From an uncultured Clostridia bacterium (GTDB taxonomy: Bacteria; Bacillota; Clostridia; TANB77; CAG-465), in contig CALWOE010000008.1 of assembly GCA_944383035.1 (NCBI GenBank), forward strand, positions 1 through 37,878: a stretch of DNA of 37,878 nt. Reading direction: 5' to 3'. The notes beneath the pieces are model-generated. The model did not search any database, was not told the DNA's origin, and worked only from the letters and a program-made list of their open reading frames with translations. The position numbers were made by a program, and so were the translations under genes. Positions 1 through 3,848 of this stretch are shown in pieces; the stretch's first letter is position 1; every line of letters starts with the position of its first letter.

Positions 1-1
1 C

Positions 2-33
2 AAAAAACCAATACTAGCTTTTACTAGTACTGG
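2..33 (-). terminator. Intrinsic terminator/attenuator of repeat copy 1
   Basis: A 10-bp stem (8-17 with 24-33, one G-U pair, 6-nt loop) is followed on the minus strand by six T (7-2). It is the same structure as in copy 2, where it lies between promoter and gene. Confidence 0.75.
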
Positions 34-94
34 TTTACATTTTTTACATTTTCTTCTATTTTTATATTTTTTACTTTACATTTTTTACAAAATT

Positions 95-133
95 TTACGT
101 GTGTGTGTGTGTGTGTGTGTGTAGTACAATCAT
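95..133 (-). CDS. His-Thr leader micro-ORF, copy 1 (12 aa)
   Basis: The minus-strand ATG at 133-131 follows AAAAGGAG (148-141) by 7 nt. It encodes MIVLHTHTHTHT and stops at TAA 97-95, immediately after twelve CA units (99-122). Copy 2 encodes MIILHTHTHTHT with the same length and ribosome site, which argues for real translation. One CA unit fewer would keep the frame open for 24 more codons and stop at TAG 26-24, the end of the terminator's 5' arm. A leader-peptide role is inferred; no known family matches. Confidence 0.5.
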   Translation of the reverse strand: MIVLHTHTHTHT

Positions 134-190
134 ACTTATACTCCTTTTAGTTTACATATATTAATTTTATTTATTTCCATTTATACTAAA

Positions 191-220
191 ATTATATACT
201 ATTTTACCAAAATTTTTCAA
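191..220 (-). promoter_or_regulatory. Sigma-A promoter of repeat copy 1
   Basis: TTGAAA (220-215), an 18-nt spacer and TATAAT (196-191) on the minus strand. The -35 lies within ACACTTGAAAAA, like the other pilin-type promoters here. It starts 10 bp beyond the ATPase stop codon. Confidence 0.75.
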
Positions 221-230
221 GTGTTTTTTT

Positions 231-1532
231 TTATTTTATACAAAAAGTTGCATATAAAGGAACTGATTTTATATTATTTTCAAATCCAAAATTTTTACTA
301 GAAATTCTTATTGAATATTTTGGTTTATATCTTTTCATATAAAGTTTTAAACTCTTACTTCCTACATTTTCATTTGCTTTTACTTCAATCGGTATAATTC
401 CGTCATCATTATATATCAAAAAGTCGATCTCTGCTTCATTTTCTGATTTCCAATACATTAATGAATGTTTACTTGCTACCAGATGTGTAGCAACATAATT
501 TTTAGCAATTATTCCCTTGTATAATAAAAGATTATCTAAAATAATATCTTTATATTTTATTTCTAACATTTTTAACAAAATTCCAACATCACTTAAATAC
601 AATTTAAAATTATCATCTACAATAAATCCTAAAGGTGGTATTTCTGGTTTTTTTAATACTGGACACTTAAGAACCATAGTACTTGAAAGCAACCAATTTA
701 ATGACGATTCATAATCTCTTTTTCTAGCATTTGAATTTATCTTACCATATTGAAATTTATTACTTATATTTCCAAGTTGTGATGGAATAGATTTATAAAT
801 TGCTTCTATTTTAGTAGCTTCAAATTTATTAGACACATACTTATTCATATCATTTAAATATGATTTATAAATATCTGTAATAATATCACTATCGAATTTT
901 AAAATATCTTTATTATTAGATAATAAATTTTTTACCGCTTCAGGCATTCCACCAACACAAAGATATAATCTATATAAATCCAAAGTTTTCTTATGTAATA
1001 TTAAGTCTAATGGTTCATTTGTCTTATAAGATTTTTTTATTTCCTCTATTAATGGTTTACTATTATTTGCCATTAAAAATTCTTCAAAATCCATAGGATA
1101 CATATTTATCATTTTTACTTTACCTACCGGAAATGAACTATGCATTCTTTTTATTTTTACACCTAATAAACTACCCGCACAAATAATTTTAAATGGTTCA
1201 GAAGATTCATTAAAATATTTTAATGCACTAATTATTTCTTCACATTCCTGAATCTCATCAAAAAAAATAATAGTTTTTTCCAAATCAATATCTTTATCTA
1301 AATATATTTTCATTCTATTAAATTTTTCTTGAGTATTAATTTCCTGTTTGAATATTTTTACAATATCTGCTTGTTCTAATAAATTTATATAAATATATTC
1401 TTCAAACTCTTTCTTACAAAATTCATTAATTATATATGTTTTTCCGATTTGTCTTGCTCCTATAACCATTAATGGTTTATCAATGTTTGTATTTTTCCAT
1501 TCTAATAATTCTTGATATATTTTTCTTTCCAT
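231..1532 (-). CDS. AAA_14/DUF4143-family ATPase
   Basis: A 433-aa protein of the widespread prokaryotic AAA_14 plus DUF4143 family. Walker A is GARQIGKT (residues 25-32). Walker B is TIIFFDEIQE (around 87-96, Asp92-Glu93). GGMPEAV in the middle is typical of DUF4143. Near the C-terminus Asp370, then PIEVK (Glu383, Lys385), resemble the D-(E)xK core of restriction-endonuclease-fold domains. The molecular role of the family is not settled. It has its own consensus promoter and AGGTGA ribosome site, and two 20-bp direct repeats lie just upstream of the -35. It sits downstream of the BspA-type gene and ends at repeat copy 1. Family call is secure; function is not. Confidence 0.85.
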   Translation of the reverse strand: MERKIYQELLEWKNTNIDKPLMVIGARQIGKTYIINEFCKKEFEEYIYINLLEQADIVKIFKQEINTQEKFNRMKIYLDKDIDLEKTIIFFDEIQECEEIISALKYFNESSEPFKIICAGSLLGVKIKRMHSSFPVGKVKMINMYPMDFEEFLMANNSKPLIEEIKKSYKTNEPLDLILHKKTLDLYRLYLCVGGMPEAVKNLLSNNKDILKFDSDIITDIYKSYLNDMNKYVSNKFEATKIEAIYKSIPSQLGNISNKFQYGKINSNARKRDYESSLNWLLSSTMVLKCPVLKKPEIPPLGFIVDDNFKLYLSDVGILLKMLEIKYKDIILDNLLLYKGIIAKNYVATHLVASKHSLMYWKSENEAEIDFLIYNDDGIIPIEVKANENVGSKSLKLYMKRYKPKYSIRISSKNFGFENNIKSVPLYATFCIK

Positions 1533-1674: not shown

Positions 1675-3600
1675 CTACTCATCATAAGTTATAACTCTTG
1701 TACCATACACTGCACCCCATGGTTCTCCTGCTACTTCTCCTCTTTTTTTATGTATAATTATTTCTGTTAAATTATTTGCACTTTTAAATGTAGCTGAACT
1801 CATAGTTTCTACACTACTTGGTATTTCAACTCTTGTAAGTTTATTACAACTTTGAAAAATACTACTGTTTAAAGTTTTTACTCCATTTGGTAATATAACA
1901 TTTTTTAAAGATGGACAATATGAGATGGCTCTAGATTCAATAGTTTCTATACTGTTTGGTAAATCATCAATATATTCTACATCTTTTTTTACCCAATATA
2001 ATCTTTTTTGAGCTTTATCTACTAAATACTTATCATTTAATAATGTAAATGTTTGATTTTCCTCTGAAACTTCTATATTTTCTACAAAAATTATTGAAGA
2101 TGAAGATATATTTTTAACATTTTTTGGCAAATATAAATAATTAATACTTGATGGGATAGTAGAAAGACCTGTAATTGCTTCTAAACTTTCTGGCAAATCT
2201 ATAGATGTAACAACACCATTTGTAATAAAAGCACCTCTTTTAATTTCCTTTACTCCTTCTTTTATATCTATATCTCCTGTTTTATTACATTTATACAATA
2301 CTTCATAATTTATTGAGTATAAATCATTATCTAAGCAAGTAAAATATTGATTTTTGCTATCCACAACAATTTTATCTATTTTATGAGTACCAAAAGCCAT
2401 TTCTGAACCAATAGTTTTCACACTTGCTGGTATATATATTTCTTTTATTGATGTATAACCATTAAAAGCATTATATTCTATTTTTTCAGTTAAGGTATTA
2501 ATTGTTATACTAGTCGGACTTCCTATTGCTCCTAATAATGTTTTAAAATCTTTACTATACAGACAATTATTTTCAAAAGAAAAATAATCATTTTTACTTA
2601 CATCTAGATTATTTAATTTAGTGCATCCACTAAATGCTCCTGTCTCTATCGTTTTTATAGACGATGGTATGTTTATATATTCTAAATTTTTACATCCAGA
2701 AAAAACATCTTGAGATATAGTAGTTAAATTTTCCGGTAAATTAATACTTATTATAGAATTACAACCAGTAAAACTTTGTGTTTCTATATTTGTTATACTA
2801 TTTGGTAAATTAATATTTGAAAGTTTTGAGCAATAACTAAAACAACCATTTTTTAACTCTTTAATTGTGTTTGATAATTTTATAGTAGTTAAATTTGAAC
2901 ATCTCAGAAATGCATATTCTCCTATAATTTCAACACCATCTTCCATTATTACCTCTTGCAGTGATGTATTATTTGAAAAAGCATTTTTACCTATTTCTTT
3001 TACACTTCCAGGAATAATTACTCTTGTAAGTCCCTCTAAATTATTAAATACTCCACTATCTATTTTTGTTACGTTATATGGTATTCTTACTGTTCCTGTA
3101 CTATCTAGTAAAAGTAAGTTACTATTTGCAGATATTAAAACTCCATCTACTATTTCATATGGGATTATTCCTATTCCTAATTCTTTTGCCCATATTAGTT
3201 TTTGTTCCACATTTCCTTTATAATATAACTCTCCTTTTATTATCTCAAATTCTGAGTAATATCCTTTCTTTGCTGTTGGTATTACATCATATATATCCTT
3301 TTCATTCTCATTTGTTTTGGTATTGTATGTTAATCCATTATCTGCTGCATTTAAACTTTCTATTTCAAACTTTCCTACACTTTGGGCTGCCTTGGTTTGC
3401 ACAAACATCTCAAATTCTTCTTCTATTACTCTTAAATCATTTTTAAATACTGATTCATTTGCTACTCCAAATATTTTTCCATCTGTTATATTGTATAATA
3501 CTGTTGCTACAAGTATAATTATCACTACTATTGTTACTACTAATACTATTAGACTTATTCCCTTTTTAGTATTTTGTTCTTTTTGTTTTAAACTATTCAT
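1675..3600 (-). CDS. Pilin-like surface protein with BspA-type leucine-rich repeats
   Basis: 641 aa. The N-terminus has a short basic leader, then KKG|ISLIVLVVTIVV, a prepilin-type cleavage site after Gly14 followed by a long hydrophobic helix. The usual Glu at mature position 5 is Val. From about residue 165 to the end it is built of BspA/Treponema-type LRR units (patterns such as IGKNAFSNNTSL, IETGAFSGCTKL, LPNSIETIESRA), with a few non-LRR insertions (e.g. FTCLDNDLYS). LRRs of this class usually bind host or partner proteins outside the cell. The start ATG has GGAGG 12 nt upstream. Its only visible promoter is in repeat copy 2, with an intrinsic terminator in between, so expression is probably controlled by attenuation. 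The C-terminal TYDE gives no cell-wall sorting signal. Confidence 0.85.
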   Translation of the reverse strand: MNSLKQKEQNTKKGISLIVLVVTIVVIIILVATVLYNITDGKIFGVANESVFKNDLRVIEEEFEMFVQTKAAQSVGKFEIESLNAADNGLTYNTKTNENEKDIYDVIPTAKKGYYSEFEIIKGELYYKGNVEQKLIWAKELGIGIIPYEIVDGVLISANSNLLLLDSTGTVRIPYNVTKIDSGVFNNLEGLTRVIIPGSVKEIGKNAFSNNTSLQEVIMEDGVEIIGEYAFLRCSNLTTIKLSNTIKELKNGCFSYCSKLSNINLPNSITNIETQSFTGCNSIISINLPENLTTISQDVFSGCKNLEYINIPSSIKTIETGAFSGCTKLNNLDVSKNDYFSFENNCLYSKDFKTLLGAIGSPTSITINTLTEKIEYNAFNGYTSIKEIYIPASVKTIGSEMAFGTHKIDKIVVDSKNQYFTCLDNDLYSINYEVLYKCNKTGDIDIKEGVKEIKRGAFITNGVVTSIDLPESLEAITGLSTIPSSINYLYLPKNVKNISSSSIIFVENIEVSEENQTFTLLNDKYLVDKAQKRLYWVKKDVEYIDDLPNSIETIESRAISYCPSLKNVILPNGVKTLNSSIFQSCNKLTRVEIPSSVETMSSATFKSANNLTEIIIHKKRGEVAGEPWGAVYGTRVITYDE

Positions 3601-3628: not shown

Positions 3629-3661
3629 AAAAAACCAATACTAGCTTTATACTAGTACTGG
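3629..3661 (-). terminator. Attenuator terminator upstream of the pilin/BspA gene
   Basis: A 10-bp stem (3661-3652 with 3644-3635, one G-U pair, 7-nt loop) is followed by six T (3634-3629). The coding start is 28 bp further on, too near for another promoter, so transcripts from the promoter at 3819-3848 must read through this structure to reach the gene. It may also end transcription from the coiled-coil gene. Confidence 0.8.
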
Positions 3662-3722
3662 TTTACATTTTTTACATATTTTAACTTATTTTCTTTTTTT
3701 ACTTTACATTTTTTACAAAATT

Positions 3723-3761
3723 TTACGTGTGTGTGTGTGTGTGTGTGTGTAGTATTATCAT
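3723..3761 (-). CDS. His-Thr leader micro-ORF, copy 2 (12 aa)
   Basis: The minus-strand ATG at 3761-3759 has AAAAGGAG (3776-3769) 7 nt upstream. It encodes MIILHTHTHTHT and stops at TAA 3725-3723, straight after (CA)12 (3727-3750). In the frame that would result from losing one CA unit, translation continues for 24 codons and stops at TAG 3654-3652, exactly at the end of the terminator's 5' arm. A third frame (one unit gained) stops after a few codons. A regulatory leader is inferred from position and from conservation with copy 1. Confidence 0.55.
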   Translation of the reverse strand: MIILHTHTHTHT

Positions 3762-3818
3762 ACTTGTACTCCTTTTAGTTTACATATACTTATTTTAATC
3801 ATTTACAATTATATTAAA

Positions 3819-3848
3819 ATTATATATTATTTTACTAAAATTTTTCAA
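3819..3848 (-). promoter_or_regulatory. Sigma-A promoter of repeat copy 2 (pilin/BspA gene)
   Basis: TTGAAA (3848-3843), 18-nt spacer, TATAAT (3824-3819). The -35 lies in GTACTTGAAAAA. The predicted transcript starts about 50 nt before the micro-ORF. Confidence 0.75.

Follow-up and report, generated by a model that had tools for sequence, protein, structure and literature searches.

The window analysed here is the whole 37,878-nt stretch of contig CALWOE010000008.1 (assembly GCA_944383035.1), derived from an uncultured Clostridia bacterium whose genome is designated G000 below. Two copies of a cassette consisting of a promoter, a short leader open reading frame (ORF) with a dinucleotide tract, and a predicted intrinsic terminator are located on its minus strand. 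Copy 1 occupies positions 1-240 and comprises the following features:

191-220, minus strand: promoter (-35 TTGAAA at 220-215, 18-nt spacing, -10 TATAAT at 196-191)
131-147, minus strand: leader ribosome site AAAGGAG (147-141) and ATG (133-131), from the sequence
99-122, minus strand: dinucleotide tract (AC)12 (TRF, 12.0 copies, 100% match)
95-97, minus strand: leader stop TAA in the assembled repeat phase, which is a closed phase (frame analysis)
24-98, minus strand: spacer of 75 nt (frame analysis and translation)
5-36, minus strand: predicted intrinsic terminator hairpin AAACCAGTACTAG..CTAGTATTGGTTT followed by T's (fold)

Copy 2 and the gene behind it are arranged as follows:

3868-3628, minus strand: whole cassette (alignment to copy 1)
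3819-3848, minus strand: promoter TTGAAA-18-TATAAT (sequence and alignment to copy 1)
3759-3775, minus strand: leader ribosome site AAAGGAG (3775-3769) and ATG (3761-3759) (sequence, alignment)
3727-3750, minus strand: dinucleotide tract (AC)12 (TRF)
3652-3726, minus strand: spacer, in which the open phase stops at TAG 3654-3652 (frame analysis, locus L009)
3632-3664, minus strand: predicted intrinsic terminator hairpin (-17.2 kcal/mol, locus L009)
1675-3600, minus strand: gene of a 641-aa protein downstream of copy 2 (Pfam LRR_5, E 3.3e-74)

The ribosome site, ATG, (CA)12 tract and stop that the sequence-only reading had described in copy 1 were confirmed with all their coordinates, the tract at 122-99 being equally written CTA(CA)11C. 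The copy 1 promoter matches the consensus at 11 of 12 positions and is kept in other copies; since promoter-like matches across the whole region were no more frequent than in shuffled sequence, its support comes from position and conservation. The leader ribosome site and ATG are kept in the copies of G000 and of the related genomes G011 and G027. Folding of window positions 1-37 gave a hairpin of -17.8 kcal/mol (z = -6.3), in keeping with the predicted terminator. The gene behind copy 1 lies past the contig end, outside the window, and immediately upstream of this copy an AAA_14/DUF4143 ATPase gene is found (231-1532, minus strand). A search of the window for Rfam leader or riboswitch families revealed none, the sole match being a group II intron domain (RF00029, 49 bits) at the right contig end (37807-37875, minus strand).

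The product of the gene behind copy 2 possesses a prepilin-like N-terminus (KKGISLIVLVVTIVVIIILVATVL) together with BspA-type leucine-rich repeats (L009). From this signal and the LRR domains we infer a surface location. The gene is the putative target controlled by copy 2.

Removal of one CA unit from copy 1 shifts its leader into the frame VKFCKKCKVKNIKIEENVKNVNQY*, which runs for 24 codons to a TAG (26-24) in the 5' arm of the hairpin; the same change in copy 2 gives VKFCKKCKVKKENKLKYVKNVNQY*, also of 24 codons and also ending with a TAG in the hairpin 5' arm. This hidden frame, noticed earlier in both copies, was reproduced by frame analysis. With one CA added, the leader of either copy stops after 11 nt. 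As the minus-one-CA phase is long, while the plus-one-CA and assembled phases are short, the long phase is one in three in both window copies.

The genome of the window carries about 20 copies of the cassette with 73-100% identity, and given this number the layout is clearly not a product of chance. Some copies have decayed (L010, L016, L017, L019 and L023, with interrupted or short tracts), one of them having ACG for ATG and one lacking the terminator.

The behavior of the three phases was analyzed in 140 regions from 24 genomes of one order, picked by similarity of the tract or cassette and not by reading frame. For each copy with an identifiable terminator (those of G027 and of some G011 copies were located by motif) the stop position of all three phases was recorded, and dinucleotide shuffles of the spacer served as the null. 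At least one phase was open to the terminator in 107 of 111 copies, as against 41 expected from the shuffled spacers, and in 100 of the 111 (34 expected) exactly one phase was open, with its stop inside the hairpin or within ~10-15 nt of it. After removal of a spurious second match in L159, 104/110 copies from 21 genomes had one phase reaching the hairpin and the two others stopping 15 nt or more ahead of it, vs 34.5 expected, although copies within one genome are paralogues and the pooled totals overstate their independence. The second-longest phase stopped at a median of ~50 nt before the hairpin. In 20 of the 21 genomes the majority of copies had a phase that was open as far as the terminator, and the phase rule failed or was ambiguous in 6-7 copies.

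This rule holds over spacers of 30-183 nt, with unrelated spacer sequences and different terminators, both of which differ between species. In G038, with spacers of 52-181 nt, the stop of the long phase follows the position of the hairpin. The spacers of G083 measure 138-183 nt, and here the open phase extends over 196-235 nt and stops just past the hairpin, for which the null gives ~0.01 per copy. Among the 20 copies of G011, diverging by 16% from their consensus, 19 are open vs 8.4 expected under neutral substitution, and most of the spacer indels in this genome are multiples of 3.

These data bear on the possibility that the cassettes are simply recent duplicates, which inherited the open frame by chance and without function. 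Copies from one genome are clearly paralogues of each other, and in most genomes about a quarter to a half of the shuffled spacers have a long phase that stops within the hairpin. For G000 the proportion of shuffled spacers with such a single long phase is ~26%, and its copies taken alone give P ~0.006 under neutral substitution; genomes other than G011 are weaker when considered singly (P of all open from 0.006 to 0.35). Chance inheritance is nevertheless strongly disfavoured, and we regard it as very unlikely, for the rule persists in species whose spacers and terminators are unrelated, over long spacers and with another repeat unit (see below), and the excess in G011 is contrary to neutral substitution. 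Considering the frequency of open frames in shuffled G000 spacers and the paralogy, two related copies are weak evidence, and the strong evidence for selection of the open frame comes from the other species rather than from the window copies. The earlier suggestion that selection keeps the alternative frame open is thus supported by the relatives, in which the layout was found and the frame is far from being interrupted as often as chance predicts (104/110 vs ~34), whereas the two copies from which it was first derived gave it, by themselves, a weak basis.

The tract consists of (TACA)n, 20 to 76 nt long, in G027 and G001, where it occupies the same site after the ribosome site and ATG; these copies also obey the phase rule. 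The CA and TACA units have in common a length not divisible by three and the absence of stop codons in any frame, exactly what a frame switch needs; the replacement of one unit by the other argues against both His/Thr sensing and binding of the CA repeat. The latter belongs to a group of explanations in which the tract acts by its RNA or DNA identity (via a CA-binding protein, an unusual DNA structure or a site at which cassettes are exchanged by recombination), with a secondary role left for the frame. The purity of the tracts and the many dispersed copies would agree with such a role, as would the tracts of G024 (L118-L130), which are 20-40 nt long and lie within an inverted repeat ACTACA..TGTAGT without a clear terminator, in front of genes for membrane-anchored, prepilin-less proteins. 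It does not, however, predict the phase rule, and with TACA in place of the CA unit in relatives we consider it very improbable as the primary function; recombination between copies in addition to the switch is possible.

The hidden peptides were compared with regard to whether the frame or its product is preserved. Most lineages have a pN/pS ratio of ~1 or higher for these peptides (G103 has 0.65), a value that in itself would also suit chance inheritance, and no peptide common to different species was found among those compared. Hence selection acts on the frame being open to the terminator and not on the peptide sequence. As a test for selection on the peptide, pN/pS was negative. A functional small protein encoded by the long phase, as the conserved open frame and the motifs VKNVN and NLVKGDEFL common within genomes could imply, is very improbable in view of these ratios, of the lack of a peptide shared by species and of the frame ending at the terminator irrespective of how long the spacer is.

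The leader peptides of the his and thr operons contain runs of His or Thr codons. Classical amino-acid attenuation, with the ribosome sensing charged His/Thr tRNA at an HTHTHT run, would suit a CA tract encoding alternating His and Thr in all frames, but it is the least probable of the explanations considered, because a codon run for the sensed amino acid is not conserved (TACA replaces the tract in two relatives, G027 and G001, encoding Tyr-Ile-His-Thr), the downstream genes specify putative surface proteins and not biosynthesis, no antiterminator pairing is predicted in the whole-leader fold, and the open phase is left unaccounted for.

The reading that we favour, and hold to be very probably correct on the grounds of the sequence comparisons, is that the cassettes are phase-variable transcription attenuators, i.e., slipped-strand switches operating via ribosome-blocked termination. 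Transcription would start at the cassette promoter, and a ribosome would translate the leader ORF. Slipped-strand mispairing is expected to alter the number of CA (or TACA) units, and, the unit not being a multiple of three, each change would shift the reading frame past the tract. In two of the three phases the ribosome would halt soon after the tract and far short of the hairpin, the terminator would form and the surface gene would be off; in the third, translation would enter and block the hairpin, RNA polymerase would read through and the gene would be on. Thus, only one of three repeat lengths would carry the ribosome into the terminator, probably opening it. Folding of the whole leader gave the terminator as the sole stable structure and predicted no antiterminator competing with it, which makes an alternative fold of the trp type unlikely; blocking of the hairpin by the ribosome itself would be the simplest model.

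A precedent exists in the pyrBI attenuator of Escherichia coli, where a translated leader ORF overlapping the terminator blocks hairpin formation. The same effect of translation is proposed for the cassettes, which, unlike pyrBI with its UTP-dependent pausing, would be set by repeat number. A closer counterpart is provided by Streptococcus gallolyticus, in which pil1 and pil3 are phase-variable attenuators with GCAGA repeats (Danne et al., 2014; PMC3894217). Expression of pil1 was shown experimentally to depend on leader translation and on the terminator, being low when the leader ends 39-49 nt before the terminator and high when it ends in or near it (PMC3894217). Like these loci, the Clostridia cassettes combine a promoter, a downstream leader ORF that has a ribosome site and start codon of its own and contains a tandem repeat whose unit is not a multiple of three, an intrinsic terminator (here predicted) between leader and structural gene, and a gene for a surface structure, which is the pilus in S. 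gallolyticus and, behind copy 2, the LRR protein with the prepilin-like N-terminus and a presumed surface location. As in pil1, the number of repeats decides whether the leader stops ahead of the terminator or inside it, in the 104 of 110 copies following the rule.

The differences are as follows. The repeat unit is CA or TACA and not GCAGA; in pil1 two of the three phases are high (21 and 23 repeats are both high, and only 22+3n is low; PMC3894217), whereas the cassettes have one open phase in three; and instead of two loci in one species, many species of a single order carry ~5-30 tracts per genome. Additionally, pil1 has been established by experiment, while the cassettes are known here from sequence. 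The mechanism as such is already known, from one streptococcal species, and what appears to be new is its CA/TACA version with one open phase in three and many copies per genome across a bacterial order. Our literature search on repeat-switched attenuators found the S. gallolyticus work alone, and a 2025 review of phase variation makes no mention of the pil1 mechanism.

Tract lengths differ in 30 of 81 copy pairs with near-identical flanks; for instance, L363 and L365 have tracts of 22 and 18 nt, the compared flank being 100% identical. The variation seen is that between paralogues, and such differences are as expected from slippage. Within the window genome the lengths are confined to a narrow range, mostly 11 CA and sometimes 12, and this counts against the switch, as do the tracts of G024 with no clear terminator. 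The open phase is the assembled one in only 10 of 110 copies, while one third would be expected under random phases (P 2e-9 when copies are counted singly, P 0.04 when they are collapsed to distinct combinations of genome and tract length). Selection against the on state at the majority of loci agrees with this excess of closed copies; assembly consensus and shared ancestry could also contribute to it.

Most of the downstream genes begin with a prepilin-like signal, e.g., GISLIVLVVTIVVIIILVATVL or GITLIALVITIIVLLILAGVSI. Matches of their products to Pfam N_methyl are weak, one being just above the curated cut-off, and the window genome possesses a prepilin peptidase domain (PF06750). Judging by the signal and the LRR domains, these products are presumably surface proteins.

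The pattern TRTA(CA)8 was detected in 79/287 genomes and 29/45 genera of the order, and in none of 114 genomes of Clostridia outside it. The named relatives with tracts are uncultured Clostridia MAGs (CANAIR01, CALXBS01 and JAUNGP01). Up to ~30 tract matches occur per genome, with a maximum of 29 in G103. Contigs often end inside a cassette (window position 1; C4, C32, C60 and C68 of G000; many contigs of G011 and G024), from which it follows that the repeats break assemblies and the copy numbers are lower bounds. CA tracts found by pattern in other phyla showed no consistent leader-terminator layout, and a scan of viral contigs for the cassette was negative.

Several variants of the cassette were observed. 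In G050 (L167-L168) the open phase passes the terminator and finishes at a TAATG sequence, in which its stop overlaps the start of the gene; L165 (G038) and L370 (G083) are devoid of a terminator, and their open phase ends in an ATGA overlap with the gene. These overlaps suggest translational coupling as another output of the module. Large ORFs of G151 (L358-L361), G061 (L344-L345) and G239 (L379) have the module [ST][LV]x[AT]V(HT)n as an N-terminal fusion; with the CA repeat directly inside the genes, as in classical in-gene repeats, this would be ordinary translational phase variation. The cassettes share with the translational phase variation of Haemophilus, Neisseria and Campylobacter a slipped-strand frameshifting repeat near a start codon, whereas the repeat of the window is placed in a separate leader and would act via the terminator.

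More tentatively, the surface repertoire of the order might be governed by one evolvable switch with interchangeable outputs (terminator, stop/start overlap, gene fusion), in which one of three phases is on and selection at any given time keeps most loci out of it, a cell displaying one or a few of 5-30 proteins; such antigenic variation by attenuator is a conjecture that we state with considerable doubt.

With regard to attenuation itself, dozens of surface-protein genes in uncultured gut-type Clostridia would stand behind one type of switch, and the logic of pil1 would extend over several families of one Clostridia order, where the copy numbers would make it a main route of surface-protein control. 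As the on or off state of each gene could be read from the sequence, expression of the surface repertoire in gut communities should be predictable from metagenomic reads. The two repeat units, CA and TACA, offer natural replicates for testing ribosome-controlled termination. Finally, in an alphaproteobacterial MAG a CA tract lies near the start of a pilin-like ORF (L211, 5661-5690), and possibly represents an independent case of phase variation.
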